64,000 nucleotides of DNA. It comes from Owenia fusiformis. Taxonomy: Eukaryota; Annelida; Polychaeta; Sabellida; Oweniidae. Both the position numbers and the translations under genes were made by a program. The stretch lies in NCBI GenBank assembly GCA_903813345.2, contig CAIIXF020000003.1:6721815-6785814 (forward strand), in the 5' to 3' direction. The notes under the pieces were generated by a model, which saw only the letters and a program-made list of their open reading frames with translations, was not told where the DNA came from and did not search any database. Of this stretch, positions 7,533-61,565 are shown piece after piece (within the stretch, counting starts at the first letter, position 1; each line of letters begins with the position of its first letter).

Positions 7533-7731
7533 GTGACAGCCTAGCTGCAGCATGATCAGAAAATAACAGCCAAGAAAGAGCAAAAAACATTGAAGTTGCA
7601 TTGAGCAAAAATTCTGAACAGTACAATATTGAACAAAGGAGACATTCCAGGAATCATAATACGCTGTGCAATTTATAGACAAAACGAAGAAGATTTCTCG
7701 AACTTGTTTGCATAAGAAATTACTTTGAAAA
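7533..7731 (+). other. Probable 5' UTR exon part of the RBM12-type gene
   Basis: A good splice acceptor ('actatttcacag') ends at 7532, and the sequence then runs without an in-frame ATG-initiated frame to the start codon at 7732. Vertebrate RBM12-family genes also keep the whole coding region in one exon after a 5' UTR intron, which fits. The upstream non-coding exon and the promoter were not located. Confidence 0.5.
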
Positions 7732-10700: not shown

Positions 10701-11601
10701 CAGTAATGCGGATCGTCAAGCAGCTGTTAATAAACACAAAACTCGGCACAGCACAAGGTACTACCCAACAAGACGATCTCCCCCTCGTACCAGGTATATT
10801 AACAATAATGAAGATAGAGATAGGCGATCAAGAGATGATCAACCAAGATCCAGAGATGATCGAGATCGAATTAGAGATGATGCAAATATAGAGGATCCTC
10901 CAAGACGCGTTGAGATTTCACGACAAGATGATGATCCTGATGGCCCTTCACGCAGAAGTGGTTCCTCCTCTCCACACTACATTTTACGAATGCATGGAGT
11001 CCCATATAATGCTAGCATTCAAGACATACGTGAATTCTTCAATGGGTGTGAAATTGTCCCAGGTGGTATCCATATCATCATTGCAAAAGATGGAAAGGCA
11101 ACTGGTGTTGGATTTGTTGACTTCGCAACAGAAGAGGATGAAAAGCGAGCGTTACTCTTGCACGGCAATTTGTTCCTCAACACAAGGCGCTATATTGAGC
11201 TATCTGGCACAACGAAAGACCAAATGTTGCAAGAACTACGAGGAGCCGACAGAAATCCCAAAATGTCCAAAACTCGAGGAGGTGGGTTTAATTCACCCAC
11301 TTTCAACAAACCGTCATCAATTGACAATATAAAAGCTGCAGGACTAGAAGGCATTAGTAAACCAGGCTGCATAATTGGGATTCAGAATTTACCATACACT
11401 GCAACCATACCAGACATTCTAGCATTATTTTCAAAGTTTAACCCTATTAAGGACTCTGTTAGAATGCATTACACAGATACAGGGAAGGCTACGGGAGATG
11501 CTCTGATTGCACTTTCATCAAAGAAGGACACAGATGATGCGCTGTATCAACTCAGGCACTCTAGCCTAGGAAAAAGGCTACTGAAGCTTTATCTTGCTTA
11601 A
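7732..11601 (+). CDS. RBM12: RBM12-type RNA-binding protein, five RRMs, intronless CDS
   Basis: An uninterrupted 1289-aa protein. RRM1 (aa 1-85) begins MSVIIRLQNLPW and contains FFQGLTVPDGGVHIVGGENG and SSKTEMQN, hallmarks of the RBM12/RBM12B (SWAN) clade. Next come a Pro/Gln/Arg-rich stretch with PRxDFNQ repeats (about 200-290), RRM2 (about 430-513), an RS-rich segment (about 536-600) of the kind found in splicing factors, and an Arg/Asp/Ser-rich region. A tandem octapeptide QDDRRGPx array follows (about 764-870), then RRM3 (about 910-1000), RRM4 (about 1082-1165) and RRM5 (1212-1289, at the very C-terminus). The family binds RNA in the nucleus through RRMs related to those of hnRNP F/H. The protein is longer than the ~930-1000 aa vertebrate members because of the repeat regions. 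The start is the first ATG, with A at -3. Whether it is orthologous to RBM12 or RBM12B is unresolved. Antisense ORFs over the repeats are shadows. Confidence 0.93.
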   Translation: MSVIIRLQNLPWSANALDIRRFFQGLTVPDGGVHIVGGENGDAFIAFSSDEDARQAMLRNNGKINDNSVTLMLSSKTEMQNVIAVARGQMPAKPPVASSSGPANTQAPPLSSQGFGTSRDPPAIDAPRSMPPLDFNNLNRPSYSQDGPTLEHPLGPNFRPPELKLPDHEPHRSMAPQQPLYQQPPMNHQGIPRQQFNGNQAHVYNQPPRQEFNQGPRPDFNNQGPPRQDFNQIPPRQDFIQGPRPEFNQPRLDFNNQPRPEFHNQGPRPDFNQVRPQMAPGIPMQGPPRFDPPFEPPRDNFRPPGGPDFEPRHQLPPAFRGDPQGPPVQQGPLLATPIMQGGPPMRQPPIQSNLPPPGVVEPDRLPPPGNFPPANSFPPYRDGPDMDRRFNNDRRFSQDRDREGFPPQGPPLLPDDHDDRREKGPPPHGMHVEIIGMPKTVKYSDVRSFFQGCRISQDGLKLINTAVGLRTGRGFIKFYSEEDCEKALRRNHQFMEECMVSVRPCAPEDFENAIDSYTPGARSRGELRYQTPPPRRIRNRSRSRSPRRRSRSPHGHRRSPHKRGRSPGMRSRSPKRRGRSPERRRSPARGRSPTRGQDQRMGSNDQRSTSKRSRSPLGDKREVNIVRKISSSPPRKLPDIVRRSSPSRHQRRSPPRGKSPPREVRQIRHGPSSNGPQSEMRPPNERHGSRSNDRRELQDERSRVKDDKRAESNERRGRSNETRGPSNERMPLIERKVQFPNKEKGSSPHVTQESSPQRHGIPLQDDRRGLPQNDRRGHPQDDRRGPSQDDRRGHPQDDRRGPLQDDRRGPSQDDRRGPPQDDRRGPSQDDRRGPLQDDRRGPSQDDRQGPPQDDRNGPLQDDRLGLPQDEIRGPGRNWRGPTQVDRRGPSPIDRHSPHRRRSPPPRHQNDLSVKLSNLPEKIERSEVKEFFKNLSIDPRIGCYVEFDKDGRVVDDGCAYVVFTNYDDFKKALSMSERVPMQGKYISIHPISNADRQAAVNKHKTRHSTRYYPTRRSPPRTRYINNNEDRDRRSRDDQPRSRDDRDRIRDDANIEDPPRRVEISRQDDDPDGPSRRSGSSSPHYILRMHGVPYNASIQDIREFFNGCEIVPGGIHIIIAKDGKATGVGFVDFATEEDEKRALLLHGNLFLNTRRYIELSGTTKDQMLQELRGADRNPKMSKTRGGGFNSPTFNKPSSIDNIKAAGLEGISKPGCIIGIQNLPYTATIPDILALFSKFNPIKDSVRMHYTDTGKATGDALIALSSKKDTDDALYQLRHSSLGKRLLKLYLA

Positions 11602-17285: not shown

Positions 17286-18256
17286 CGGGTCAACACATTG
17301 TATCATATCATATGGGCAACCATAGTATCATATACTATCATATGGGCAACCATTGTATCATATCATATGGGCAACCATTGTATCATATCATATGGCCAAC
17401 CATAGTATCATACCATATGGGCAACCATTGTATCATGTCATATGGGCAACTGTTGTATCATGTCATATGGGCAACCATTGTATCATATCATATGGGCAAC
17501 CATTGTATCATGTCATATGGGAAACCATTGTATCCTGTCATAGGGGCAACCATTATGTCACATGGGCAACCATTGCATCATGTCACATGGGCAACCGTTG
17601 CATCATGTCATTTGGGCAACCGTTGTATCATGTCATTTGGGCAACCATTGTATCATGTCATATGGGCAACTGTTGTATCATGTCATATGGGCAACCGTTG
17701 TATCATGTCATATGGGCAACGGTTGTATCATGTCATATGGGCAACCATTGTATCATGTCACATGGGGAACCATTGTATCATGTCATATGGGCAACCATTG
17801 TATCATATCATATGGGCAACCATTGTATCATGTCATATGGGAAACCATTGTATCCTGTCATAGGGGCAACCATTATGTCACATGGGCAACCATTGCATCA
17901 TGTCACATGGGCAACCGTTGCATCATGTCATTTGGGCAACCGTTGTATCATGTCATTTGGGCAACCGTTGTATCATGTCATATGGGCAACTGTTGTATCA
18001 TGTCATATGGGCAACCGTTGTATCATGTCATATGGGCAACGGTTGTATCATGTCATATGGGCAACCATTGTATCATGTCACATGGGGAACCATTGTATCA
18101 TGTCACATGGGGAACCATTGTATCATGTCATATGGACAACCATTGTATCATGTCATATGGACAACCATTGTATCATATCATATGGACAACCATTGTATCA
18201 TGTCACATGGGGAACCATTGTATCATGTCATATGGGCAATCATTGTATCATGTCAA
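17286..18256. repeat. 25-bp satellite with 320-bp higher-order repeat
   Basis: About 39 tandem copies of a 25-bp unit (core 'catatgggcaaccattgtatcatgt'). A distinctive block with the variants 'gaaaccattgtatcctg' and a shortened 20-bp unit occurs at 17521 and again at 17841, so a 320-bp higher-order unit has duplicated. Degenerate related sequence with GTCAACA/GTCAGTCACT words extends upstream to about 17104. Since 25 bp is not a codon multiple and the unit lacks stops, all three forward frames are open, the longest 319 codons. These are not genes. Confidence 0.95.
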
Positions 18257-18519: not shown

Positions 18520-20230
18520 TAGAAGGTGCCACCATTGAACTAATATTGCATTTGAAGTTGCTACACTTGAATCAACTTCGAATTGGAATGGTGTATGCTA
18601 CCTTTGGAATAGCTCAAATAGGAAGATGCTGTTGCTGTAGGTTACTTGAATCAAATTCAAGTGAAAGTTGCAAAAGTTCAATCAACTATGGAGATGTTAT
18701 ATGCTAAACCAACTTCATTGGAAGTGCTACACTGCAAATTCAAATAATATCTGGTATAACTGAGCCCTAACGTATTACATTGAACCAACTTAAACTACAT
18801 TGGAAGAGGTTACACTTGGACTTACTTCAAATACACTGGAAGATGTTACACTTGAACCTACTTCAAATACACTGGAAGATGTTACATTTGAACCTACTTC
18901 AAATACACTGGAAGATGTTACACTTGAACCTACTTCAAATACACTGGAAGATGTTACACTTGAACCTACTTCAAATACACTGGAAGATGTTACACTTGAA
19001 CCTACTTCAAATACAGTGGAAGATGTTACACTTGAACCAACTTCAAATACACTTGAAGATGTTTCACTTGAACCTACTTCAAATACACTGGAAGATGTTA
19101 CACTTGAACCTACTTCAAATACACTGGAAGATGTTATACTTGAACCAACTTCAAATTCACTGGAAGATGTTACACTTGAACCTACTTCAAATACTCTGGA
19201 AGATGTTACACTTGAACCTACTTCAAATACACTGGAAGGTGTTACATTTGAACCTACTTCAAATACTCTGGAAGATGTTACACTTGAACCTACTTCAAAT
19301 ACACTGGAAGATGTTACACTTGAACTAACTTCAAATACACTGGAAGATGTTACACTTGAACCTACTTCAAATACACTGGAAGATGTTACACTTGAACCTA
19401 CTTCAAATACACTGGAAAATGTTACACTTGAACCTACTTCAAATACACTGGAAGATGTTACACTTGAACCTACTTCAAATACACTGGAAGATGTTACACT
19501 TGAACCTACTTCAAATACACTGGAAGATGTTACATTTGAACCTACTTCAAATACACTGGAAGATGTTAGATTTGAACCTACTTCAAATACACTGGAAGAT
19601 GTTACACTAGAACCTACTTCAAATAGACTGGAAGATGTTACACTTGAACCTACTTCAAATACACTGGAAGATGTTACACTTGAACCTACTTCAAATACAC
19701 TGGAAGATGTTACACTTGAACCAACTTCAAATATACTGGAAGATGTTACACTTGAACCTACTTCAAATACACTGGAAGATGTTACACTTGAACCTACTTC
19801 AAATACACTGGAAGATGTTACACTTGAACCTTCTTCAAATACAGTGGAAGATGTTACACTTGAACCAACTTCAAATACACTGGAAGATGTTACACTTGAA
19901 CCTACTTCAAATACACTGGAATGTGTTACACTTGAACCAAATCAATAAATACACTGGAAAAAGTGCTTCAAATACACTGGAAGATGTTACACTTGAATCT
20001 TCTTCAAAAACACTGGAAGATGTTACACTTGAACCTACTTCAAATATACTGGAAGATGTTACACTTGAACCTACTTCAAATACAAGCAGAACATGTGACA
20101 ATTGAACCACAAATACAGATGTTACAAAATATTGAACCAGCTTCAAATACAGTGGAAGATGTTACAATAGAACCAACTTCAAATACAATGGAAAATGTTA
20201 TGCTTAAACCATTTCTCCAAATACATTGAG
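18520..20230 (+). repeat. 36-bp satellite (about 39 good copies), open in all three forward frames
   Basis: The unit carries 'ctggaagatgttacacttga' and 'acctacttcaaataca'. The regular part runs from about 18795 to 20210, with degenerate copies upstream to about 18520 and downstream to about 20250. As 36 is a codon multiple, the frame from 18800 to 19948 reads a 12-residue repeat SNTLEDVTLEPT about 31 times. That frame has no ATG (it opens at TTG), so it could only be coding as part of a spliced gene. The array lies 1.5 kb upstream of the zinc-finger ORF, whose N-terminus is also rich in N, T, E and P. Confidence 0.93.
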
Positions 20231-20419
20231 GAAAATGCTACACTTGAAGAACCATCATCAATTACTTGAACAATGTCTGTCATATTTTCTTGATAATGTT
20301 TGGAGTCACTGCATTTCAAATCAATTGAAAAAGTGGGAGATCATTAATGAACCAGATCATATTCACATTGCAAAAGATCATGGCTTCAAATCAAAATCAG
20401 GGGAAGATGCAATTTAGAA

Positions 20420-21670: not shown

Positions 21671-24600
21671 ATGCATCTAAAATTCTGCAACACCAACATG
21701 GATTCCAACTCAGATATGGTGTCTGTATACATCAACATTGACAATGAAATCACTAGTGGTGCTCATACAGTATATAATGACTCTGAGGAAACTGACTTGA
21801 ACTATGTACATACAACTAATTTCAATGTTGACCTAAGTGGAGATAACATCGAGGCCATATGCAATAACATTGAACCATCATTTAGTGACATTGGACCAAC
21901 AGGAACTGATGTTGTATCATCTTACAATAATGCCAAAGTTAAAGGTGATATTGAACAGACCAAGGTTATAGTTGGCTCAACTCTCAGTAACACTGGTCCA
22001 GCTAGGAATACTACTGAACCAACATTTAATATTGTTGAACAATTGCAAAACACTGCTGATACTATCCACAAGGACCATCATGTTAGGAATTGGCCAACTA
22101 CCGAGGATACAGACAAAATACCAAGTGTTCCTAATGGTAATTCTCGTGGTGAACGTCTTGAGATTGCGATGGAAACTGATCACTCATATTTAGAACACAA
22201 TTCTCTGAACAGAAGGCTAGATGATAAAACAAAGCCAGATGATAACAAAATGACAGATGATAACCTTCCCCCAGATGATAACAGCAACCCTGGCTCGATA
22301 ACCATAATTGTTGATCCTAGTTTCAACATCCAACAACAAGATGCTGATATCGACTCAACCAATCTTTCAATACACAAAGAGAATATTCTTAACGATACTC
22401 AAAACCCTGTAAATACCATTAGTACATCTTTTGAAAATCACCCACATATAAAATTTGAGCCTATAATATCAGAATCATCAAGTTTTGACCAGCAGACATC
22501 CACATTAAACGTGGATAATGAAACTCGGGATAAAAAACTAGGTCTTGGTACGTACCATACTAAAAAACACTTCTCTGACAACAGTGACTTATTGATCACC
22601 CCTCGAACATATGATAACAATAGGACTAATAACAGTCCAACCTTTGGTAATGATCAGGCCAATAATGACCATCATGTATTTAATAAATCTGTTGATCAGG
22701 ATGGATTCAATAACAGACGAATCAAACTCGAATGTGGACATGGAAATACTACAGTTTATGCCATAAAACTCGAAAAGGATGAAATACCTCTTGGCACACC
22801 AATCTCCTTAACTAATCAACATCAGGATAAAAGGGGCACACCCACCTCATCAACCAATGAACATCATGATAAAAGGGGCACACCCACCTCATCAACCAAT
22901 GAACATCATGATAAAAGGGGCACACCCACCTCATCAACCAATGAACATAATATTGATAAGGCCATCAAAAAAGAAAATGATCTTAATCACAAGTCTTTTG
23001 AAAATGGTGATTGTACTTATGCTAATGATGTGAACCATGCAGAAGCTGTAACATGGGCTTTATATGATGAGTCAGACAAAATGGACACTCATCCAACATC
23101 TTCTGATGATTTACATTGTGCTGTTTGCGACAAAGAGTTTAGAACTTTATACTCTCTGAAGATACATCATTGTGCAAAGGATACAACATCGCAAAAACCA
23201 TTTCCTTGCAATCAGTGTGAGAAATCTTTCTTTTATTCTAGTCACTTAAAAGTTCATTTACTTAAGCATGCAAACAGGAAAATGTTCAAATGTAAAATTT
23301 GTGATAAATCCTTTCTTAGTTTGAATAAGTTGAAAATTCATAAAAACATACACACTAGTGAGAAATCAGTTGCTGAAGAATTATCTAGTAATAATGATGA
23401 ATCATATAAATGTAAATACTGTGGGAAGGAATTTGTGACTTTGAAAGGTATAAAAATCCATGAATCACATATGCACAGTGAACAGCCAATGGACAATGAC
23501 TTGAACGAAGAAGAGAAAAAATTCAAATGTAAAAATTGTGAAAAAATATTCAACCATTCAAAAGAATTGAAACAACATAAACGGATCCACACTACTAAAG
23601 TAAATGAGTTAAATGAGGTGCCTTCTGTGGAAGCAGCTGAAATGATTAAATGTCAATACTGTGAAAAAGAGTCCACAACCATAAAAGGTATGAAAATACA
23701 TGTGACACATATGCACAGTGAGGAACCAAATGAGACTAGCAATGACTTGAATGAAGATGAAAAAATAAAAATATTCAAATGTAAAATTTGTGACAAATTA
23801 TTTCACCAATCAAAAGAATTAAAACGCCATAAACGAATCCATACCACTGAGAATATAACAAGCGGACAGTCATCAAAATTGAAAGAAAAACCATTTGAAT
23901 GTGGATATTGCAAAAAATCTTTCCATACATTGAAAGGTATAAAAATACACGAAGGACATGCCCATGATCTAGATAAAAACAAAGCTGACAAAGTTATAAA
24001 CAATGATGATTGTGATGAACACAACAATGATGATATTGACAAAAAACCTTACCCATGCGACCAATGTGATCAAACATTCAAAACTCAACGACTTTTAAGA
24101 TCACATGAAAAGCAACATGCAACATTGGAGAACAATTTTAAATGTAAATGTTGCGATAAAGTCTTTAAAGATTGGAATTATGTTAAAAGACATGAAGAAG
24201 TCCACATGGGTGTGAAATCAAAGTTCCAATGTAGGTTTTGTGCGAAGACATTTAGAGCTTTGAGTTATACAGAAGAGCATGAACGGCTACACATGGAAGA
24301 AAACCCATTCAGCTGTAAAATTTGTAATAAATCATTCAGCTGTTCCGCCTATTTAAAAGAACATGAAGGAGTTCATAATGGTGACTTGACATACAAATGT
24401 AAATATTGCGACAAATCGTATAGTGCTCTAAGAACGGTTAAAGCTCATGAACAAACACACTTTCAGTCAGATAGAAAATCATTTAAATGTCAATACTGCA
24501 GTAAGATATTCAGCACAAAGAAGTATATGCAAACTCATGAAGATCAAATCCATGTTAACCCAGATGTTAAGTCACATCAATGTCAGTATTGTGAGAAGAC

Positions 24601-25339
24601 ATTTCGCTCTTCTGCATATTTGAAAATTCATGAACGTTTACATAATGAACCTAGCCTAAGAGAAGATGATAAGCACAAGTGTCAACATTGTGAAAAAATA
24701 TTCAGCTCGTTGAATTATTTAAGGGAACATGAGCGTTTGCATACAGAAGATAAACCATTTTCTTGTCAGTTTTGTCACAAATCATTCAGTTGTTCCACAT
24801 ACCTTAAAGAACATGAGCGAGCACATTCTGCCATGTCATTCAAATGTAAACACTGCGCAAAAACATTCAGTACATCATCTTATCTAAAAATCCACGAGAG
24901 AGCGCACACTGTTCCAAGTGATAAATTCAAATGCCAGTTCTGTTACAAAGTCTTTAGTTCATTACAATATGTTAAAGAACACGAACGTCTCCATGTAGAA
25001 GGAACTCCATTCAAGTGTAGAATTTGTGAAAAGTCTTTTACTAGTGCAAGATATGTTAAGGAACATGAACGATCACATGCTGATAAAAATCCATTCAATT
25101 GTCTGTTCTGCAATAAAACTTTCAGCTGCGCAAGATATGCCAAACAGCATGAAGTTACTCATACTAACCCAGATGCCTTAAAGTGTAGACACTGTGAGAA
25201 AACATTTAGTTTGGAAAGTTATGTGAAAAGGCATGAACTAACTCATGCTGTTCCCGAATCAAGTGTTCCTGAACCAAGTGTTCTTGAATCTTATTCTTCA
25301 GAATCAGTAACACCTTCTTATATTGAACAAATCTTATAA
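21671..25339 (+). CDS. C2H2 zinc-finger protein with 22 fingers, intronless CDS
   Basis: Up to 1222 aa. The N-terminal 480 residues are acidic and Asn/Ser/Thr-rich, with no BTB, KRAB, SCAN or ZAD domain that I can see. They include a 14-residue repeat (GTPTSSTNEHHDKR type, perfect 42-bp DNA repeats near 22830-22950). Fingers start near aa 483. I count 22 with CxxC-F-L-HxxxH spacing; the first is atypical (HHC in place of HxxxH) and the sixth lacks the central Phe. Several linkers are long and acidic, unlike the canonical TGEKP, so the fingers may not all bind DNA as one array. The likely role is nuclear sequence-specific binding. The first ATG (21671) has T at -3, while the in-frame ATG at 21698 has A at -3 and G at +4 and may be the real start. 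Ortholog not recognised. Confidence 0.9.
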   Translation: MHLKFCNTNMDSNSDMVSVYINIDNEITSGAHTVYNDSEETDLNYVHTTNFNVDLSGDNIEAICNNIEPSFSDIGPTGTDVVSSYNNAKVKGDIEQTKVIVGSTLSNTGPARNTTEPTFNIVEQLQNTADTIHKDHHVRNWPTTEDTDKIPSVPNGNSRGERLEIAMETDHSYLEHNSLNRRLDDKTKPDDNKMTDDNLPPDDNSNPGSITIIVDPSFNIQQQDADIDSTNLSIHKENILNDTQNPVNTISTSFENHPHIKFEPIISESSSFDQQTSTLNVDNETRDKKLGLGTYHTKKHFSDNSDLLITPRTYDNNRTNNSPTFGNDQANNDHHVFNKSVDQDGFNNRRIKLECGHGNTTVYAIKLEKDEIPLGTPISLTNQHQDKRGTPTSSTNEHHDKRGTPTSSTNEHHDKRGTPTSSTNEHNIDKAIKKENDLNHKSFENGDCTYANDVNHAEAVTWALYDESDKMDTHPTSSDDLHCAVCDKEFRTLYSLKIHHCAKDTTSQKPFPCNQCEKSFFYSSHLKVHLLKHANRKMFKCKICDKSFLSLNKLKIHKNIHTSEKSVAEELSSNNDESYKCKYCGKEFVTLKGIKIHESHMHSEQPMDNDLNEEEKKFKCKNCEKIFNHSKELKQHKRIHTTKVNELNEVPSVEAAEMIKCQYCEKESTTIKGMKIHVTHMHSEEPNETSNDLNEDEKIKIFKCKICDKLFHQSKELKRHKRIHTTENITSGQSSKLKEKPFECGYCKKSFHTLKGIKIHEGHAHDLDKNKADKVINNDDCDEHNNDDIDKKPYPCDQCDQTFKTQRLLRSHEKQHATLENNFKCKCCDKVFKDWNYVKRHEEVHMGVKSKFQCRFCAKTFRALSYTEEHERLHMEENPFSCKICNKSFSCSAYLKEHEGVHNGDLTYKCKYCDKSYSALRTVKAHEQTHFQSDRKSFKCQYCSKIFSTKKYMQTHEDQIHVNPDVKSHQCQYCEKTFRSSAYLKIHERLHNEPSLREDDKHKCQHCEKIFSSLNYLREHERLHTEDKPFSCQFCHKSFSCSTYLKEHERAHSAMSFKCKHCAKTFSTSSYLKIHERAHTVPSDKFKCQFCYKVFSSLQYVKEHERLHVEGTPFKCRICEKSFTSARYVKEHERSHADKNPFNCLFCNKTFSCARYAKQHEVTHTNPDALKCRHCEKTFSLESYVKRHELTHAVPESSVPEPSVLESYSSESVTPSYIEQIL

Positions 25340-43318: not shown

Positions 43319-44427
43319 TTCGTCTGATCTCGTATTTTTGCTTCGTTCACCTTCACTCCGTGGTATACAGATATACGCCCAATAGGGTTATTTTAACTGT
43401 TTTTATTAAAACACATAAAGAATACCATTTTGTCAGATCTAGGCTTATAAAATACGTGAAACGTGGCACGTAATGATGAGACCGTTTTCCAGTCTGTAAT
43501 TTTGAGACAAATTATGTCAGACAGAAACATAAACTATTTTCTTTTTTATGACTTTTTTATTCATAAAAACATTTGAAATAAGTTACATTTACGACATATA
43601 ATATTGCTTCGTAGTTATATTATAGTCACACATTTTAGAATCTTATATTTTTGGCATCTATCTATTGGCATATATACAGGGTGGGCCAAAAAAAAGTTCA
43701 CCCTTTTTCATTTTAATCTAATTTTCTTATTTTTGATGCAATGCCTCTAAAAATTGATATGTATATAGCTCAGACATTTCTGTACATGTTGTTAGGATTT
43801 GAGTGAAATTTATGCAACAGTGTTGTCATGACACCTAGAATATATTCATGGTGTGTCATGAAAAAAAAACCAGAAATTTACTTCATTTACAAAATGGCGG
43901 ATTTCAAAAAAAGGAGGGAAATTTGAAAAGAAGTTATCATGGTAAATATAATTTTTATGTCAGTTAATGCAAAATATTACAAGGTAGAGTGTTAATTACT
44001 AGTCAGAGTTGATGATAAACACCTCTTTAAACAATTAAGTACTCTTATAAACACCCGATACTACCATAGATGAGTTGGTCAACAAGTTACTGAAAATCCA
44101 TGGTTTTATCCAATTTTCCTCATTTTTACGTTCACAATATTGATAATAATTTGATGGTTTTATGTAATACACTTATGATATAATTACAAATGAATAAGTT
44201 ATTAAATTCTGCATAATATAATTTGTACAAGATGCCATTTTAATTCTGTTCATGCTTTATAGTGCAGGGAAAAGGGGTACTCAGAGTTGGGAATACTAAT
44301 ACTGGTGATTTATTCCAAGCTCAGAGTCATTGGGCACCCCTTAAGAGTTGAGTTCAAACTGGGATTAATGAAAATTACTATTTAGAAATGAACTGCAATT
44401 CTTTTTCAGTAACTGTCACAGGATATC

Positions 44428-46007
44428 ATGCCTCCCCTATCAGATGAAGATAAGGCTATAATCAAAGTACTGAGAACAGAAAAGAAATATGGGGCAAAGA
44501 AAGTCTGTAAGATGTTTCCAAATAAAAATTGGAATGTTCGCACAGTTGCGAAACTCATTAGAAAAGTTGACATCACTGGCTCCACTAAGAGGAAGCTTGG
44601 AAGTGGGCGTCCCAGAACTGTTACAACAGCAGAAAACATAGAGACTGTAGCTGATTTAATATGTAGCCAAGAGGATAACCCAGGGAGTAGCATGTCTCCA
44701 AGAGAGATAGAAAAGAAAGCAGGCATATCCAGATCAACTGTTCGAAGAATTGCCAAAACTGAGTTAAAGATGAAAACATTTAAGCGCCAGCACCTTACTC
44801 TCTTAACAGACAACAATAGAAAGAAAAGACTGGATAATAGCAAGCGACTCCTGAAAACATTTTCCAAACGTATGGTAGATACATAAGGGTTATGTACTGG
44901 GAGGTTTTGGATACAGGGTTTATCCCAAGGGAAATATGTGTATCTCATGAGGGACCGCAGGGACCGAGGGAGATACACATATTTCCCGCGGGATAAACAC
45001 TGTATCCAAAACCGACCGTACATAACTGGTGTATCTCATACTTGAGTGGGTTTGGGGTAGATATAACCTTTACTACCTTTTTCAAATGACAAGATAGGCC
45101 TATACTGTAAAAGCACAAGTTATATTTAACATTTTCCTAATATTCCTTCAGTTCAATACAATAGAATTGTAACATTTAAACTTTTTGAAAAATTTTAAAC
45201 TTCTGAAATTTAAATTTTTTAAATTTTTAAACTTATTTTAACTTTTGAAAAAATTCCCGGGAGCGGGATGGATATATTATATCTGCCCGCATTTTGCCTA
45301 GAGCGGGACATATACAATATATCTTGCCCGCTCCTCAGATATGATATATATTCCCGGGTGATATCTACCCCAAACCCACTCAAGTATGAAATACAACCTG
45401 GTTCACAGACGAGAAGATGTTCACAGTTGATCCACCTAAAAATTCACAAAATGATCGGATTTACGCTGATGTTGAAACAAAGCAGCAAATACACCGAGAG
45501 CGACTTGTAAAGGAGAGGAGAAAGTTTACCTCAAAAATAATGGTATCTGCCGGCGTATCTAAATTGGGAAAAACTAGAGTAACATTTGTTCAACCTGGAG
45601 CCAAAATGAATTCTACATACTATATAGACAGAGTGCTAAAAAAGTCCTTATTAAAGGATATGAATCGCATCAATCCAAACTACATATTCCAACAAGATGC
45701 GGCTCCCTCGCACACATCTAAAGCAACAATGGAGTTCTTGCATGCCAATGCACCTGATTTTATCCCCCCTGACTTATGGCCCCCAAATAGCCCTGATCTC
45801 AATGTTATGGATTATTTTGTGTGGGGTGAACTAGAAAAACATGTTCATAGTGTTCCCATCCATTCAGTTCAAGAACTCCAACAAAGAATAACTTTATGTT
45901 GGGAACAATTATCACAACAATCAATTAACGCGGCAATAAATAAATGGCGTCATAGACTAAAACTGGTTGTGCAGGAACAAGGAGGACATATTGAACATTT
46001 ACTTTAA
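44428..46007 (+). pseudogene. Mariner-type transposase, split by an insertion
   Basis: The N-terminal part (44428-44883) has a helix-turn-helix pair (YGAKKVCKMFPNKNW; SPREIEKKAGISRSTVRR) and the GSGRPR AT-hook-like motif. The C-terminal part (from about 45395 to 46007) has the first catalytic Asp in WFTDEKMF, the second in FQQDAAPSH and the third in SPDLNVMDYF (DD37D). Both parts are intact and share a frame across the insert at 44883-45394, which adds stops. The gene is therefore inactive through one nested insertion, not general decay. Confidence 0.9.
44883..45394. mobile_element. Nested hairpin-rich insertion in the transposase
   Basis: 512 bp flanked by 'atac' (44879-44882 and 45391-45394, the second copy counted in the interval). 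It contains two inverted-repeat structures. Bases 44887-44948 pair with 44970-45027 (core 'ttttggatacagggtttatc'). A 34-bp terminal pair lies at 45031-45064 and 45361-45394 ('actcaagtatgaaatac' type), with further GAGCGGG/CCCGCTC repeats inside. It may be two nested elements. A relative of the first hairpin arm is at 49770-49850. Confidence 0.75.
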
Positions 46008-49908: not shown

Positions 49909-52900
49909 ATGGCGGAAGAATCAGATGATAGGACTAGTAACTCTCCAACTGGTGTCAGACGGAGACTAGATCCAACGCGTCAAACATTCAGCAAATATGG
50001 GTCAGCTATGACGCCACCCACAGATGATGCTGTTCTCTACCCCCAGGATGACACACACTCATTCTTTGCAAAGGTTAAAGAGTTATAATTTACTAACCAA
50101 TAGGGGGTCAGGGGGGGGGGGGGGAGTGGAGGACCATTTTGGTATAAGGAGGTGTTCTTTATACATGTAGCTTGGAAATGTTGCTAATTTTCCTTCTTTT
50201 TAATGGGATATTTGAATGTATTTGAGCATTTTGCTCCTTATTTTTCAATAACAATAAACAACATATGTATGGACAGAAGAACAATTATCGATTGAAGCTA
50301 GAGAACACAAATTATTAATTTTTGCATAAATGTATCTGGGTTTCTCTTGTTTTTCTGTAAGAATACTCATGAAGGGCTGTATTTATTTCACAACTGCCTT
50401 CTATTTGCACCATCAACAGATTCAGACTAACATAGGTTTGGTGCAAGTTCTATATTGATGGTGCAATGTCCAGGCCATTCTGTATTTGTTTCAATTTTGA
50501 TGTTAAAATATATTATTTGCACCATCAACAGACTGACAAACATCGGTTTGCAAGTTCTTAATTGATGGTGCCATATCCAGGTCATTCTGTATTTATTTCA
50601 TAAATGCCTGCTATTTGCACCATCAACAGACGCAGACAAACATAGGCTTGGTACAAGTTCTATTATTGGTGCAACAGGATGAGAAATATTCATATTCATT
50701 GCGTCCCTTTAAGCATTTAAATTAATGAGAATTTCCTCAACACATCACAAGGTGGGCATTCCTCCAGTACATGGAACTTTCATCAATAAAACATTCTTCA
50801 GAATAAAAACTTACATTTTATTTTTAGGGTAGGGATTTTGAGAGCACATTTACCAATCATCAGTATACGGCCAAAGAGAGGGAGACTCTAGCCAGTTATG
50901 AGAGTTTGGACTATTTACCCTCGCACAGTGATGTATATAAGAACTGGGTAAAAAGGCAGCCTCGCAGGTATGTGCATGAATACATTTTGTCTGTCACAGT
51001 AATGTCTTTTCTACAAAGGTGAACCATGTCACAGATCGATTTCAGATTTTCAGTTTTTTTTCTTTATATTACAATCTTGAACTGATAATTTTTTAGGCAT
51101 TCTTTGTAAATGTTAAGGTGGCCATTTTGGATTTTCTGTCCTTAAATGTTCTCTGTAAATTCTTGTCAATGCATTTCCAGACGCTCTGTTTAACTAAAAA
51201 TGTTCCTTATTCAAAGAAAATATTTTTATCTTTTCAGATTAGACTGGGATCGCTGGTTAATGATGGGGCTGATTGGTTTTAGTGTTGGATTCATTGGTTT
51301 CTTGTTACATCAATTGATTGATGTTATTGCTGACTTTAAATGGGATACAGCCAGAGAGTACATAGCTGTAAGTACTGGTATATAATTAACAATGGGTAAA
51401 ACTAACCAATTTAGATATAGCTGACTTTAAATGGGATACAGCCAGAGAGTACATAGCTGTAAGTACTGGTATATAATTAACAATGGGTAAAACTAACCAA
51501 TTTAGATATAGCTGACTTTAAATGGGATACAGCCAGAGAGTACATAGCTGTAAGTACTGGTATATAATTAACAATGTGTAAAACCAACCAATTTAGATAT
51601 AGCTGACTTTAAATGGGATACAGCCAGAGAGTACATAGCTGTAAGTACTGGTTTATAATTAACAATGTGTAAAACCAACCAATTTAGATATAGCTGACTT
51701 TAAATGGGATACAGCCAGAGAGTACATAGCTGTAAGTACTGGTTTATAATTAACAATGTGTAAAACTAACCAATTTAGATTCTCCTTAACATTACTCTCG
51801 ATTTTGGGAAGTTATGGCTGCATGCTGTACGGTTGTCGTAGATCAAATATGATCGAGGCATAACATACCGGGAATACCATACCACTTTGAATTTCTATTT
51901 TAGGATTGCAAAACACACTAGTACTTGCTGCATGATTTTTCAAGATGACAAATTATTTAACTGTGAAGGAGAAAACCAAATATACTTTTTCAGGATGGTA
52001 ATGAAAGAAAGACAGAGTAGACTCAATGTTAAAGGATATGCTTATTTCCTTATCATACATTTATAAATGAGCCAAAGACATTTAAATGTATTATCAAATG
52101 GTAAACTCTACTGCATACATGTATCTCAGGCCCATAGCCAGGGCTAGGGTTCCCCCCTGGCCAAAAAATCTTTAAAAATCATACAGTTTTCACAATTCTG
52201 AGCACTTTTTAAGGGATTTTGCCAATTTTGGAACAAAATAGTCAAAAGTGAACCCCCCCTGAAATTTTTCAAAAAGTGAACCCCCTTAGCAAATCCTGAC
52301 TACCGGCCTGTATCTACATGTATTCATTGGAAACTCTACTTAAGTTTATGTTATTTTCAGGATGGTAAGCCCTTGATCAGCTGGGGCTTCGTGATGGGAT
52401 ACAGTCTCTTGTTTGTGCTCGTCAGTGCTGCCCTTGTCGTGGTAAGATTATTAAATAAGATAGTGTGGTATTACGCTTTTACGAAACAATGTGCTATCAA
52501 ATGTTTATTGAAATTTTTCATGCCAAAGACACTTTCTTTCAGTTTCAAATTTTGATCGATTTTGTTTGTTTAAAAAGATTCCCTGTAGACATCTTTAATT
52601 ATCAAATTTACAAATTATTTATTCTCTACTTAGTTTCTCCGTCCAAGTGCTGGTGGATCAGGCATGCCAGAACTAATAGGTTTTCTAAATGGGACCGTTG
52701 TGCGGCACATCTTCAATGTGAAGACAATGGTGGTGAAGTTTCTCTCATGTTGCTGTGCTGTCGGGAGTGGGATGCCCGTAGGACCAGAGGGACCAATGAT
52801 ACATTTAGGGTAAGGACAATTGGGACATTTAGGGTAGGGATTTAGGGACTAATTAGGACTATAGATACCCATGTTGAATTTAGGTAAGGGATTTGGTACC

Positions 52901-55900
52901 TATAATACATGTATGGAATAAACAAAGTGGCCTTTTGATCTTGGGTCAGAAGAATCATTTATCATCATTCTTGTTTCTAAAAGTTCACTTTGAGACCTTT
53001 TTTGGCCCCCACCCTAATCCACTTGTGCATATGAGAGTTGGCATATTTAACACACATGTTAGTTATGCAATTTATTTAAATTCTTTGTAGGAGTTTGGTG
53101 GGCGCTGGCCTTAGTCAATTTAAATCTGACACACTCAGATTCAAATTGCCATTTTTTGAGCGTTTCCGCAACTCAGAGGACAGGTAATATGCAGTTTTAT
53201 ATAGTAATCTTCAATAACTTACAGTAAAAACCAGATTTATTTATTAAACATTTATTTACCAGTTTACCAAAGGAAAATTTACATACTACATGGGTTACAT
53301 AAGAAATAAAAGGTATATGTTAGCTCATGCTTCAAACACAATTGTCTGATTCATATAAGACCCTTGTTAAATTGAAAAAAATATTGCAATTTACAGAAGG
53401 TCATCCTCCGATCACAGGGCTTCAGAATCCAGAATACATAGTATATTCTTTCTTTTTACCCCCTGCGATATGCAGTAACCATTTCTCCGATTAAGAACTC
53501 GCAATCTGATTGGCTGTCGCAACACTGCGACAAAAATCATGTATAAGCCATTGCGCATAATTAGATCACGTGATTCAGTTAAACAGGGGGAAGAAGGAGA
53601 TAAAGATTCTGGACACCTGCTTAGGAGGATGACAGAAGGTTAACCAAGCCACCTTTTTAACGCATGTACAGAATATGTACATGTTGAGAAGCCTTTTCCG
53701 ATCACAGCGCTACATTTATTAATGAACAGGTCCAAAAAGGCTCATATTAAAAGATGGCAGTACTGTTGTTCCTGTTATTCAATTATCAGCTGACATGCAC
53801 ACATTAAACAAGTTGATTATGCTGCCATTTTTTTACATGCACTCAATTTGTCTGTAATGAAACCAGTGATTCTTTTGGGGGTTTTAAAGATATCGATTAT
53901 GGGTGACCAAGATTAGCTGAAAGCAATGGATCGTATGAGCTTTCCCTATGGGAAAATAACATGGGAAATATTGTTTTTTGGCTCACACAGTAAGCCTATG
54001 GGATCGACCAGGCGTCCGTCCGACAATAACCAAAATATGTTAGATAACATTAAAAGTGTAAATTTAAGGAATCTATCCTGAAGAACTAGTGTTAAACAAG
54101 GAAAATGAGAAGGATACAGAAACAACTTTTCTGGACATACAAATGAAAATAGTAAATAAACAAATCACATCAAAACTATAAAACAAAAGAGAAAACTTCA
54201 ATTTCCAAATAGTCTCATATCCAGATTTATCCGGAAATATTCCTAGAAACCAGAGCTATGGAATATTTATATCACAAATAATAAGGATTTCAAGAATCTG
54301 CAGTTATATGGAAGATGCAACAAACAGAGTTACCAGCCTGGGAAATAAACTACAACTTCAAGGTTACAGGAGTAACGTACTAAATTCCTATACTAAGAAA
54401 GCTATAACAAGAAATAAATGGATATGTATTAAATACAATATGCAGGAGAATATCATCATGAAACACTGGAAAATAAATGAGAGGAGAGAACATTAACAAA
54501 TGTATATGAAACAGTATATTCCCCGCAAAGAGGGTAAACTAAGAAGACAGATCAACATAAGAACATCAGTAAGGGGAAGGGGAGAGTTTTCCAGCCGGAT
54601 CAAAACGTTTAACCCACTTACGCGCAGTCTCAAGTCTGTGGACCCTGAAGAAAGATAACTTAACATCACAATCAAATCAAGACAAAGAAAGAAGACAATG
54701 AATGAAGAAACCAATGCAGCAAAAACAAATGACGTCCGTTGATCCGTCCGTCCATTGGTCCGTCCGTCAAAATTGGCCGCACAAATTAAAACTGCTATTC
54801 AGATTGTGTCATATCCACATTCATTTTATGCATATCCATAATGCCTATTTGACCTATCATCGCCATTTCCCAAGTTCGTCCGGTTTCCGAGAAATTGCGG
54901 ATTTTGACGTCAAAAAGTCAAATTTTCTGTAAATACTAGACACTTTGTTGAAGTTTCTCAAGGTTTGCCTTATACTTGATCATTTCTTGCAATGAATTAC
55001 ATCGTTACTAGATTAAAGCATTCCCTACATATTGCTCAATATATGTCTGCATCAAACTTTTACCGTTTTTGAGATATTTGACGACAAAAAACAGTAAAAA
55101 TAAGTTATTTTTCAACTTGCTTCAATTTGACCAAATTTTTTTTTGAAAATCATCTACAAGTTGCCAGGAGTTCAAATCTGACATTAGTTTTGACCTTTAC
55201 TTTGTTTTAATTTGTTTTGCTGGACATATGCCACATGGGTCATGCCACAGGGTGGTCATAAAAAGGAAACCCTTCCTCATAATCTTTGTCATTTTAGAGA
55301 TTAACTCCCTGATATTTCATACATTTGTACATCATTCTATTTCCTACTAGTCTACAATATTTCATCACCATCAGACTGATAGTCACGATGTTACAGCACT
55401 CTAAGAACATGCTAATAAAATGGCCCTCATTTTTACGTTTTTTACTCAAAAAAACTTGAAAAGTAGTGGAGCGATTTTGTTCATATTTGATTTGTGAATA
55501 CTTTAAGCATGGCACACTTTCTAATGACACTTTGGGGAGTAGGCAGCCATTTTGTAAAATGGCCACCATTTTTCTGTGTGCCATTTTTTGTGGTTGGTGT
55601 TCAGCATTCGGTGTTCAGTGTCTGTAACAATTGGCAGGTGATGAAATTTTGCATGTTAATGCCTTGTTATATATACTGAACCATATATGCAGTCATCAAA
55701 TAATGATTTGTTCATATATTTCAGGCGCAACTTCATCAGTGCAGGGGCAGCGGCAGGTGTGGCTTCAGCATTTGGGGCTCCCGTAGGGGGACTCTTGTTT
55801 TCAATGGAAGAGGTCAGTAAGAATCTCATTTTTTTGTGTTGAAACATTTATTTTTTAAATCAACTAAAATTTGAAGTGTCAATTGGTATATTATTATTAC

Positions 55901-56903
55901 CAGAAGTGATGACATATTGTATTGTTTCCAACTTTTTTTGGATGACAGTCAGCATTCTGTGGTCGATGTTTGGCATTTGGTGTTCATGGTTCGATATCTG
56001 TAACAAACGTTACAGATGTTGACACTTAGCATGTCAATGCCTTGGTTATTCTTTACATTGTTCCATATTTTTCACATGTACCTTAGATGTATATTGATCT
56101 TTTCAAAGGACGATTCTCGGTTTGGAGAACAAAGTTCTTCAATCTAAATGAGCATTATCCCTGTTTCGGACAAATTTGATTTTTTTACATAATATAGATT
56201 TGAATGTCTTCTTTTGAATAGTCTTAATTTAATTTGGGTAATATTTTTAGATTTTTCGCAAAAAAATATTAGCGCAGTACACTGATGAACTTCTTTCCCC
56301 AAAATCAAGACTTGTATTTTATTGAATCAGTCTAATTGAGCATTATCCCTGCTTCAGACCAATTTGTTATTTTTACATCTTGTAGATTTAAATGTCCTTT
56401 TTTGAATATTCATAGTTTAATTTGGGTAATATTTCTATATTTTTCATGAAAAAAATTATTAGCCCAGGAGACTGTTCTCCAAACAGAGAATCGTCCTTTT
56501 CCAGGTCATCCCTGGTTTCTATTTCCATTTTTTGAGTTTAATTTTTTTTTTGATTTTCATATTTCTTGCTTCTTGGTTTTCAATATTTTTTTGATATTTT
56601 CCAACTTTTTTTGTGGATGGTGTTAGGCATTGGTGGTTTGGTGTTTGGCATTCAATGTTTGGTGTTTGGTGTTTAGCTGTAAAAATGGCAGGTAGTGACA
56701 TTCTTCATGTCTCATGCATGAACCTCTACATTTCTTTTTTCCAGGTTTCCTCATTTTGGAACATGAAGCTGTCCTGGCAGATCTTTTTCTGTGCAATGGT
56801 CTCAACTTTCACTACAGACCTCTTTAACTCAGTATGCCAGGGCTTCAAATGTACTTGGGAGGACTTTGGTACATTCAAGACAGAGCGTTATATCCTATTT
56901 CAA
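49909..56903 (+). CDS. CLC-6/7-type Cl-/H+ exchanger, first 8 coding exons (partial)
   Basis: Exons: 49909-50073, 50828-50967, 51238-51367, 52361-52441, 52634-52809, 53091-53183, 55725-55812, 56745-56903. They join in frame to 344 aa and end at a phase-0 donor. An acceptor (49905) four bases before the ATG implies upstream 5' UTR exons. The N-terminal YESLDY motif is typical of the endolysosomal CLC-6/7 branch. Membrane helices follow, then GGSGMPE (about 179-185, anion path), VGPEGPMIH with the gating Glu at 224, [18 protein letters not shown], and FSMEE ending in the proton Glu at 291, then SSFWN. Both key Glu residues are present, so exchange rather than channel activity is predicted. GPEGP is unusual, since the family has a basic residue before the Glu. 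The remaining helices and CBS domains are not in the window. Confidence 0.88.
50374..50680 (+). repeat. ~100-112-bp tandem repeat in CLC intron 1
   Basis: Three copies of a unit with 'tatttgcaccatcaacaga', 'aacataggtttg' and 'caagttctat..attgatggtgcaa' begin near 50401, 50513 and 50611. GCACCATCAA and TTGATGGTGC make each unit partly self-complementary. Confidence 0.8.
51329..51783 (+). repeat. 91-bp array copying the end of CLC exon 3 and its donor
   Basis: The unit starts 'gctgactttaaatgggatac', includes the last 39 nt of exon 3, the donor GTAAGTACTGG and about 52 nt of intron. Copies start at 51329 (the real exon), 51420, 51511, 51602 and 51693, exactly 91 bp apart and almost identical. 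Each duplicate is preceded by ACTAAC and AG, so it could act as a 38-nt cryptic exon. Confidence 0.95.
52127..52310. mobile_element. 184-bp MITE, CAGG-type TIRs, 5-bp TSD
   Basis: Ends 'caggcccatagccagg' and the complement of 'caggccggtagtcagg', flanked by 'tatct' (52122-52126, 52311-52315). The interior has GTGAACCCCC words shared with the element at 1737. It lies 50 bp before CLC exon 4. Confidence 0.78.
53395..53640. mobile_element. ~245-bp inverted-repeat element in CLC intron 6
   Basis: 'aaggtcatcctccgatcaca' and 'gaatccagaat' on the left pair imperfectly with 'agattctgg' and 'taggaggatgacagaagg' on the right; 'taccccctg' pairs with 'acagggggaa'. Probably an old MITE. No clear target duplication. 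Confidence 0.55.
54061..54497 (+). pseudogene. Degenerate reverse-transcriptase C-terminal fragment
   Basis: One frame reads [14 protein letters not shown], then after an in-frame stop [40 protein letters not shown] and [20 protein letters not shown]. This pattern (fixed FLD, SYG.fISQ.iR.aRiC, L..QGY) occurs after the catalytic core in retroelement polymerases of many invertebrates. The stop and absence of upstream domains make it a relic. The class is not assigned. Located in CLC intron 6. Confidence 0.55.
55591..55677 (+). repeat. Dispersed repeat family, copy C
   Basis: 'ggttggtgttcagcatt' through 'ttgcatgttaatgccttg' matches copies A and B. It ends 47 bp before CLC exon 7. Confidence 0.7.
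55903..56045 (+). repeat. Dispersed repeat family, copy D
   Basis: 'agtgatgacatattgt', 'ccaactttttttgga', GGTGTTCATGG and 'catgtcaatgccttgg' align with the full length of copy A. In CLC intron 7, 90 bp after exon 7. Confidence 0.7.
56105..56499. mobile_element. ~395-bp element with 27-bp TIRs and internal direct repeats
   Basis: Terminal 'aaaggacgattctcggtttg' continues to 'gagaaca' and is complementary to 56474-56499. Inside, two ~170-bp direct repeats (about 56140-56275 and 56335-56465) share 'gagcattatccctg' and 'tttaatttgggtaatattt'. A MITE in CLC intron 7. The target duplication is not clear. Confidence 0.75.
56600..56712 (+). repeat. Dispersed repeat family, copy E
   Basis: 'ccaactttttttgtgga', repeated GGTGTTTGG words and 'ggcaggtagtgacattctt' match the family. 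It ends 32 bp before CLC exon 8. Confidence 0.6.
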
Positions 56904-58860: not shown

Positions 58861-59258
58861 TTCCCTACAAGTGAATAACTTACCAGCAGATAACTGATAA
58901 CAGTGAATAAGTAGTTCATACCATTGGATACCTGTGTAACTTATCAGTGGATAACTGTATTTCATACCAGAAGATAACTGTATTAGATTTCATTGGATAA
59001 CTGTAGTATGTACCAATGGATAACTACATGTAACATACCAGTGGATATATGTATAACATACCAGTGGAAAACAGCTGTATAACATACAAATAGGTAACTG
59101 TATTAGATTTCATTGGATAACTAGTATGTACCAAATGGATAAATGTATAACATACCACTGGATAACTGTACTGTAGAACATACCGGTGGATAACTGTGTA
59201 ACATACATGTACCAGTGGATAACTGTATTAGATAACATTGGATAGTCATAACTCATTC
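58861..59258 (+). repeat. ~30-bp minisatellite abutting the TLR start
   Basis: Imperfect copies of GTGGATAACTGTATAACATACCA, 25-40 bp apart, run up to a few bases before the TLR start codon. They occupy the presumed promoter and 5' UTR. The ATTGGATA word of the last unit merges into the ORF opening. Confidence 0.85.
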
Positions 59259-59261
59259 ATA

Positions 59262-61565
59262 ATGGATAGAATGACATTGATGCTGTTTTTTCTGGTAGTA
59301 AGTTTCATAAATGTGAAAGGATGGGTTGACAAATCAGGGAATGGAGATTTATATGAGGTCCAATACAATGAAACAAGTGAGGAGATCAGAAGTCAGCAGT
59401 GTCAGAAGTGCAACTGTACTTTGCAGATTGCAGACTGTAGTAATAGGAATATTGATTCGCTACCTTTGGATCTCCCAGAAAATATAACAATGCTGAATTT
59501 ATCCAGGAACCGTATAAGAAAGCTACCCGACTATTTCTTGGGTAGATATTATAAAAATTTACAGACTTTGGACATACAATACAACTCTCCAGCGTTGCAT
59601 CTCAATGAAAATGTATTTGAAGGACTTGACAAACTTCAGAAACTTTACATTACAAAAGATACAATGGTACATCCTCTTGTATTCAAACCTTTAAGGAATA
59701 TCCAAATCATTGAGGTGTATCCAGGAAATACACGTACAAGAAGTGCATCACCTATTTTGAGAGATGCTTGGCTCGATGCATTCAAAGGGCTTCAAAACTC
59801 AACCATTGAGAAATTAACTTACCAACACATCTCATCAATTCCATTTATATTAGGAGAAAAAGGTTTCACATATTTAAAAAACTGCCAACTGAAAGAATTA
59901 TATTTGTCCGATAATAAGATATCTGCAATAGAAACAGGTTTTCTAAATTATCTCCCAGAACTGGAAATACTAGATTTAACAAAAAACATGATAGGAGCAT
60001 TAATTCCTTTTTCAGGTGTTATTCAGTTTTTTAAAATGATTCATTTGAGAGTGATAAGATTAGGTTATTCAAACAGAAGGGTTTTTAAAAACCTTGATTA
60101 TCCTCGGATCCACAAATGTGTAGATACAGAATGGCCATTACCAATTGGACTTGAAGAACTTGATCTTAAGTGGGCTTCAATTGATAATCAACCTGCATCA
60201 GTTCCCTGTGAATTCAAGTTCCAACCAGAAAACAAGCTAAAGGTTCTTAATGCTGCTTATTCCAATGCTGTGATCTACTTTGGGAGTCCTTTGAAAGGAT
60301 TGGTTAATCTGCAGCAGTTTATTTACAACAACAATGATTGTAAAATTGAACCTGATTTTTTCACATGTGCAAATGGCTATTTTGAAAGTTTACAAGTTCT
60401 AAATTTAGCCTACAACAGAGTCCAGTTGTTTAAACCAAGCTCCAATTTTTCACTGTTTGAGAACTGTTCAAAGTTGCTACATTTAGACCTATCATACAAT
60501 AACTTGGCAGACATTCCTTATGATATTCTTAAGGATGTTCCTTCTGCACAGATTGTGGACCTGAGTGGAAATAAGTTAGTCAACTTTAATATACACTTAA
60601 CTACACAAATCTCCCTGAAATTGCTGAATTTATCAAATAACAATCTCCATGGTCTCAACGAACCTGCAAGAAATTATATCGCTGCTGCAAATGAGAGGTC
60701 AAATGGCAAGTTTACTGTTGACCTTAATGGCAACCCATTAATATGTGACTGTGATTCAATCCCATTCATAAATTGGATTCGGAATCACATTGACATCATC
60801 TACCAAGGTTCTCATCTAGAATGTCATTATATTAATGGATCACAGATTAAGTTCACACACTTGGATGTATCTTATATGAAAATTGAGTGCTGGAAAAGTG
60901 TTATTATTGCATCTGGGACATCAGTTGGATTTGTTTTGTTGATTGTTGGAATTGTTATATATGGATATAAGCGAAGGTATAAGATCATTTACATAGCTCT
61001 ACATTTGAGGGCATTACTGAGACGCAAGGAGTTGCTAGACATCAACTTTGATTTTGATGCATTTATAAGCTACAGTTCTTTGGACAAAACCTGGGCTATA
61101 AATAAAATTTATCGTCAGTTAGCTGGTCAGTATGGATACAACATTTGCGTGGATGACCGTAACTTCAGACCTGGATCATATTTATCTGACATTATCGTGG
61201 AGAGTATCAGCAAGAGCAACAAAATCATACTGGTTATCAGCCAGAATTTCCTTAGAAGTGGCTGGTGTAAATTTGAAATGAATCTGGCAAGGGGTGAGCT
61301 GGCAACAAGGGGACGTGATTGTCTGATCTTGATTCTCAAAGAGCCAGAAGAGTTGCTTCCCCCAGAGCTGATCACACCAACACTGCGTTCCCTACTTGAT
61401 ACAAGGGTGTACCTAGTGTGGAGTGAAGAAGAGGACAGAAAATTGCTGTTCTGGAGGAAGCTGCAGGATGCTTTAGGGGAACCTAGATTCAGAGGAGAAG
61501 ATAATAATCGATATCTGTATATGAACAATGATGGAGATGAGGAGATACTTCGAGATCTCTTATAG
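59262..61565 (+). CDS. Toll-like receptor, intronless, 767 aa
   Basis: The frame opens upstream at a TTG, but the first ATG is at 59262 with A at -3 and G at +4. A signal peptide (about aa 1-21) precedes an LRR N-cap with QKCNCTLQIADCS, then LRRs (LNLSRNRIRKLP, LKELYLSDNKISAIE, LEILDLTKNMI, LQVLNLAYNRV, LLHLDLSYNNLADIP, AQIVDLSGNKL, LKLLNLSNNNL). A single LRR C-cap follows (NPLICDCDS...LECHY...IECW), then a membrane helix (about 545-567) and a cytoplasmic TIR domain (about 594-740). The TIR has box 1 FDFDAFISYSS, BB loop DDRNFRPGSYLSD with the conserved Pro, and box 3 FW. One cysteine cluster gives the single-cluster (vertebrate-like) architecture. The role is a membrane pattern sensor signalling through TIR adaptors; ligand unknown. 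Intronless TLR genes are common in invertebrates with expanded TLR sets. Confidence 0.95.
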   Translation: MDRMTLMLFFLVVSFINVKGWVDKSGNGDLYEVQYNETSEEIRSQQCQKCNCTLQIADCSNRNIDSLPLDLPENITMLNLSRNRIRKLPDYFLGRYYKNLQTLDIQYNSPALHLNENVFEGLDKLQKLYITKDTMVHPLVFKPLRNIQIIEVYPGNTRTRSASPILRDAWLDAFKGLQNSTIEKLTYQHISSIPFILGEKGFTYLKNCQLKELYLSDNKISAIETGFLNYLPELEILDLTKNMIGALIPFSGVIQFFKMIHLRVIRLGYSNRRVFKNLDYPRIHKCVDTEWPLPIGLEELDLKWASIDNQPASVPCEFKFQPENKLKVLNAAYSNAVIYFGSPLKGLVNLQQFIYNNNDCKIEPDFFTCANGYFESLQVLNLAYNRVQLFKPSSNFSLFENCSKLLHLDLSYNNLADIPYDILKDVPSAQIVDLSGNKLVNFNIHLTTQISLKLLNLSNNNLHGLNEPARNYIAAANERSNGKFTVDLNGNPLICDCDSIPFINWIRNHIDIIYQGSHLECHYINGSQIKFTHLDVSYMKIECWKSVIIASGTSVGFVLLIVGIVIYGYKRRYKIIYIALHLRALLRRKELLDINFDFDAFISYSSLDKTWAINKIYRQLAGQYGYNICVDDRNFRPGSYLSDIIVESISKSNKIILVISQNFLRSGWCKFEMNLARGELATRGRDCLILILKEPEELLPPELITPTLRSLLDTRVYLVWSEEEDRKLLFWRKLQDALGEPRFRGEDNNRYLYMNNDGDEEILRDLL

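Follow-up and report, generated by a model that had tools for sequence, protein, structure and literature searches.

The window analysed here, a stretch of 64,000 nucleotides, contains an animal CLC chloride-transporter gene. Its model was built from homology and open frame, and the eight predicted exons join to give 344 open codons:

49909-50073, CLC exon 1 (gene model)
50828-50967, CLC exon 2 (gene model)
51238-51367, + strand, CLC exon 3, 130 nt (open frame, CLC-7/CLC-6 homology); the first repeat unit takes its exon part from the final 39 nt (51329-51367)
51368-52360, + strand, intron 3 as spliced from donor 1, 993 nt (gene model)
52361-52441, + strand, CLC exon 4, next after exon 3 in the open frame (gene model)
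52634-52809, CLC exon 5 (gene model)
53091-53183, CLC exon 6 (gene model)
55725-55812, CLC exon 7 (gene model)
56745-56903, CLC exon 8 (gene model)

The exon product matches CLC-7 (7bxu) with an E-value of 1.1e-56 and CLC-6 (8jpj) with an E-value of 3.3e-54. Because these matches are nearly equal, the gene is called CLC-6/7-type. Together with a Pfam Voltage_CLC match of 145 bits, this homology confirms that the donor duplication described below lies within a CLC gene, as a first-pass annotation of this DNA had proposed. For the C-terminal CLC half, a tblastn search of the window with CLC-7 349-805 and a piece of CLC-6 gave chance-level matches only (best E 0.26), and no CLC exon was found after exon 8, between 56904 and 64000. 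Exon 8 ends at a GTAAGTAT donor with a score of 8.54. Downstream, positions 59232-61565 carry an open frame on the same strand as CLC; its LRR and TIR domains are of the Toll-like receptor type. Either a long CLC intron contains this frame or CLC is truncated; the gene may run past position 64000 or be incomplete.

The boundary between exon 3 and intron 3 is covered by a tandem repeat:

51325..51780, + strand, array of five 91-bp units over the exon 3/intron 3 boundary (TRF, unit comparison, repeat search)

TRF reports a period of 91, 5.0 copies and 98% matches. The units start at 51329, 51420, 51511, 51602 and 51693, with a spacing of exactly 91 bp, so that the five-copy array described in the first pass was recovered by TRF and by unit comparison. 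Its end, previously placed at 51783, had to be moved to 51780, where the periodic match stops. Each unit is made up of the final 39 nt of CLC exon 3, followed by the GTAAGT donor and intron sequence, 52 nt of the unit being intronic. All five copies read GCTGACTTT...AGCT/GTAAGTACTGG. Identity at a lag of 91 is 98.6% within the array as compared to 28% across the window. With at most one mismatch, GTAAGTACTGG occurs 6 times in the window as compared to 0.69 expected, and the five exact matches are all array copies. No 13-mer of the unit was found outside the array on either strand of the window, and three of its 12-mers recur there. Searched exactly, 37 nt of the exon part had no match in viral_contigs, which is not an animal collection; Rfam gave no match at the gathering score, and ARAGORN, in its bacterial setting, no genes.

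The 39-nt exon-like part shows no differences among the five copies. The three variable sites, at unit positions 52, 67 and 75, all lie in the intron-like part, a clustering that is not significant (P ~0.17). Unit positions 89-91 deviate in copy 5 because the array stops there. The mean pairwise difference between copies is 1.8 per 87 compared bases. Neighbouring copies differ at 0, 2, 1 and 1 sites (mean 1.0) and other pairs at 2.3 on average; that neighbours are most alike fits local copying. With three variable sites and 98.6% identity at lag 91, the earlier description of copies with few differences, recent or homogenised, holds: the copies would be either young or kept alike by exchange, and the sequence fits both.

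Comparison of the array edges bears on its origin. The repeat begins at TATTGCTG (51325) and finishes at TTTAGAT (51780). The junction ahead of copies 2-5 reads TTTAGATATAGCTG, with one or a few shared bases, and all four junctions carry an A where the native position 51328 has a T:

51415..51420, + strand, first of four unit junctions, ATATAG, repeated at +91, +182 and +273 (edge comparison; weak acceptor)

This T to A change with respect to native T51328 creates the junction AG, which the first-pass annotation had taken as a putative acceptor. The change presumably predates array growth or arose during joining. A tandem duplication would have joined a point in the intron (after TTTAGA/T, 51779-51780) to a point in the exon (before TATTGCTG, 51325). 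To judge from the edges, the joined ends probably shared one or a few bases, and unequal exchange or slippage would then have taken the copy number to five.

Tandem arrays are common at this locus. The window holds 31 of them, covering 10.8% of its length, and besides the CLC array four have a period of at least 40 and at least 90% matches. Two of the 15 CLC exon boundaries (the exon 3 and exon 5 donors) lie inside arrays as compared to 1.6 expected. Since arrays are this common, an array on a boundary needs no special cause. At exon 5, the exon end and its GTAAGG donor (9.98) recur once at a 24-bp period, there with GTAGGG (8.31), within 52790-52840. The exon 4 acceptor and the first bases of that exon (TTTTCAGGATGGTAA, 52354-52368) have an exact 15-nt twin at 51987-52001, 367 bp upstream in intron 3, possibly a decoy acceptor. 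The duplication scores of these two sites are 14.5 (exon 5 donor) and 15 (exon 4 acceptor). Among 1500 random positions, 15.0% reach 14 and 14.5% reach 15; among 3000 array-free random positions, 107 reach 14.5 and 101 reach 15. For the 15 boundaries examined, an enrichment of duplications at splice sites is not claimed.

The array contains five donors:

51368..51373, + strand, donor 1, GTAAGT, native; ends exon 3 in all 238 open routes of the wide count described below
51459..51464, + strand, donor 2, copy; adds 91 nt, with an in-frame TAA after 5 codons
51550..51555, + strand, donor 3, copy
51641..51646, + strand, donor 4, copy
51732..51737, + strand, donor 5, copy

Donors and acceptors were scored with vertebrate-like weights, so that ranks are trusted more than scores. 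The five array donors score alike, at 6.0, within the top 4.1% of + strand GTs in the window. The other CLC donors score 9.95 (exon 2), 8.12 (exon 4), 9.98 (exon 5), 6.19 (exon 6), 8.6 (exon 7) and 8.54 (exon 8); exon 1, at 1.37, has the only one of the seven compared donors that falls under the array value. The array donor has the consensus GTAAGT on its intron side and GCT on its exon side. The 'perfect donor' attributed to each copy is thus perfect on the intron side; on the exon side it is not, and its score stays beneath those of six CLC donors. As for acceptors, the seven real CLC sites rank in the top 0-15% of all AGs, that of exon 3 in the top 8.5%. The four TATAG junctions rank in the top 51-54% and the five TTTAG sites in the top 64-74%. 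An ACTAAC motif had been noted before every extra copy. It precedes copies 2 and 3 alone, copies 4 and 5 having ACCAAC. Given the lower-half ranks of the junction AGs, and with ACTAAC ahead of two of the four extra copies only, the case for reading these copies as cassette exons appears weak, though weak junction acceptors can still work.

Masking of the extra donors by RNA structure was considered and rejected, the predicted accessibility of donor 1 being not consistently above that of donors 2-5 in three window settings. The junction A gives copies 2-5 a local hairpin that pairs the donor GUA and, at -12.5 kcal/mol, is 3.3 more stable than that of copy 1 (-9.2 kcal/mol). Over its full length, the stretch shows no better folding than shuffled sequences (z 0.56; 69 of 100 shuffles at least as stable).

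The consequences of donor choice were followed in the reading frame. A narrow count covered all paths between exons 3 and 4 via the five donors and nine AGs (TATAG and TTTAG). Only one of 209 routes is open, from donor 1 directly to exon 4. The 208 closed routes stop at codon 147 (76 routes), 151 (56) or 157 (76), the final normal codon of exon 3 being 145. Extension of exon 3 to any of donors 2-5 always leads to a stop, and without inserts only donor 1 holds the frame. The distal-donor extension encodes VSTGI and then reaches TAA. As in a poison exon, inclusion of a 38-nt or a 44-nt insert brings an early stop, in the twelfth codon of the former (codon 157) and after one added codon in the latter (codon 147); a 9-nt piece would not stop. 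The 38-nt length of the frame-shifting cassette proposed earlier is thus correct, and an in-frame stop precedes any effect of the frame shift. Likewise, distal donors do add 91 nt per copy, of which translation would cross little before the stop. A set of protein variants generated by the copies does not follow, as all four distal donors and both inserts stop early.

By the usual decay rule, a stop more than 50-55 nt upstream of a junction marks an mRNA for decay. The donor 2 stop sits 73 nt ahead of the next junction, with further junctions beyond, so that decay of the corresponding mRNA is predicted. Distal donors may be used, and the array is a possible mutational load.

A wide count allowed all 33 AGs of the array and introns of more than about 20 nt. 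Here 238 of 6561 routes are open, every one from donor 1; the single open route of the narrow count thus holds for the sites proposed in the first pass, not for every AG. One of the 238 has no insert, four have a single 9-nt insert (TACATAGCT) and the remainder have at least two inserts. In all but the insert-free route the first insert is 2, 9 or 13 nt long, and the AGs concerned rank in the top 60%, 96% and 36%, respectively. Inserts this small are conceivable yet improbable. The 230 routes that use a different intron 3 AG and continue into exon 4 are all closed. Exon 3 measures 130 nt with donor 1 as compared to 221-494 nt with the distal donors, a length that would favour donor 1 if exon definition applies.

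The arrangement resembles the 'mirages' of lancelets, minisatellites that span exon/intron boundaries and reportedly leave normal splicing undisturbed (PMC3087553, PMC3902484). Like the known mirages (Adh3, BflGb6, BflGb9, TnC, PGBD5), the CLC array is a tandem minisatellite-like repeat whose unit runs across an exon/intron boundary in a protein-coding gene, here in a predicted model, and whose copies carry splice signals (five GTAAGT); in BflGb9, the 3′ boundary of an exon is duplicated as well. In the globin mirages many copies carry splice signals, not all (PMC3087553). The unit of 91 bp compares with 10-72 bp in Adh3, 60 and 108 bp in PGBD5 and 150-160 bp in the globins. Host genes differ, the present one being CLC. 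BflGb6 has 6 and 3 units in two haplotypes, and the same paper cites somatic instability at Adh3 (PMC3087553). RT-PCR suggests regular splicing of the globin mirages, whose authors saw potential cryptic sites in the copied signals and proposed them as a source of new introns (PMC3087553). A further report added TnC and PGBD5 and states that the Adh and TnC mirages make no aberrant mRNAs (PMC3902484). The hosts named in the two reports are cephalochordates (PMC3087553, PMC3902484).

Other systems share single features with the array. Intron gain by tandem genomic duplication (Rogers model; Drosophila, PMC2891723) likewise copies splice signals. There, an exonic AG/GY proto-splice site is copied and a new intron results, whereas the CLC array copies an existing donor and needs no new intron. 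A copied AG/GT or AG/GC proto-splice site is absent from the CLC unit, whose boundary is GCT/GTAAGT and which contains no AGG. Potato RdRp is reportedly a case of intron gain by this route. The [D] stwintrons of Lipomyces (PMC7138796) share the donor duplication at the intron head. Their duplications are of 4-7 nt, with an internal intron nested in or beside the donor, as compared to 91-nt units and an intact first donor here: donor 1 is uninterrupted and the next donor lies 91 nt on. Internal tandem repeats in human segmental duplications show that minisatellites can also sit on exon/intron boundaries elsewhere; these may form novel introns and come with transcript data (PMC2812944). None of the 14 titles found in a search on bivalves mentions boundary-spanning repeats, which argues only weakly for their absence. 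By its structure, the CLC array is a new case of a boundary-spanning minisatellite, most likely spliced out from donor 1.

We consider it probable that the array is a minisatellite of the lancelet mirage type, with exon 3 ending at donor 1 and the other copies mostly silent. Transcripts would take donor 1 (51368), from which we infer that the other four copies leave with the 993-nt intron. Slipping onto one of the extra donors would give an early stop and probably mRNA decay, at a cost of at most some lost mRNA. It may be held against donor 1 that it scores below six of the seven other CLC donors. With two identical strong donors, the intron-proximal one can reportedly prevail in vitro. In human cells, a reporter library showed predominant use of the first donor when both tandem sites were consensus (p = 3.3e-5), a result that in its authors' view settles earlier conflicting evidence on tandem donors (PMC6783452). 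The sites of that library lie within a 147-162-nt variable region as compared to 91-364 nt apart here, and the species differs.

Five identical donors in competition, with distal donors and 38- or 44-nt inserts that each bring an early stop, could also form a valve of non-productive splicing. Distal donors or junction cassettes would then be used at a regulated or copy-number-dependent rate, and copy number would tune CLC dosage through decay. This is rather unlikely: the junction acceptors are weak and ACTAAC is missing from two of four, selection on the copies left no sign in a comparison of little power, human cells prefer the first donor (PMC6783452), and the lancelet cases are described as free of aberrant mRNAs for Adh and TnC (PMC3902484) and as regularly spliced by RT-PCR for the globins (PMC3087553). 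A mirage outside lancelets, with five donors competing in vivo and copy number setting the loss of CLC mRNA to decay, is similarly improbable. As the C-terminal CLC half was not found in the window (best tblastn E 0.26) and an LRR-TIR gene is located downstream, the locus might instead hold the 5′ part of a broken CLC gene, in which the array would be a neutral relic free to spread. We regard this as unlikely, since 344 codons are open across eight exons, the exon 8 donor GTAAGTAT scores 8.54 and the gene may simply extend past 64000.

For one lancelet mirage, an aberrant draft assembly is described (PMC3087553), and copies could have been added or miscounted here as well. This is very unlikely. 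Ordered differences at the three sites and the junction would not be expected if a single read overlap had been entered twice, and more than one copy is therefore likely to be real. It is least credible that the extra donors serve to recruit U1 snRNP, aiding definition of exon 3 or shielding the intron from early polyadenylation. The GTAAGTA sites are intact, and a downstream donor can raise recruitment at an upstream acceptor (PMC8724738); nothing particular to the CLC locus supports such a role, and the exon 3 acceptor is already in the top 8.5% of AGs.

The array is a natural counterpart of a hand-built test, with identical donors that share their 39-nt exon context and have an almost identical intron context, so that mainly their order differs. 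Because donors 2-5 as the end of exon 3 always lead to a stop, donor choice would be readable from normal versus decay-blocked RNA. Gene prediction and assembly can also be misled by such an array. The GC content is 30-37.4% in 28 of the 32 window bins of 2 kb; that of Branchiostoma is about 41%, and the bins lie mostly below it. Such low values hint at a mollusc or some other invertebrate as host. Should the host turn out not to be a lancelet, minisatellites across exon/intron boundaries would be more widespread than the literature found indicates.

Other repeats and genes were seen in the window. A 24-bp array of 13.9 copies (10021-10353) lies in a 1290-codon frame with RRM domains (7729-11601) and encodes QDDRRGP-like repeats. 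Several frames are open across a 25-bp array of 38.8 copies (17291-18255). The region 18775-20248 carries a long 36-bp array (18775-19938: 32.4 copies, 94% matches) with open frames on both strands, for example of TLEPTSNTLEDV repeats. At 22793-22948, a 42-bp array of 3.7 copies with 93% matches is part of a C2H2 zinc-finger gene frame (21671-25339). Two open frames within 44413-46007, with HTH_32 and DDE_3 domains, resemble parts of a Tc1/mariner-type transposase.
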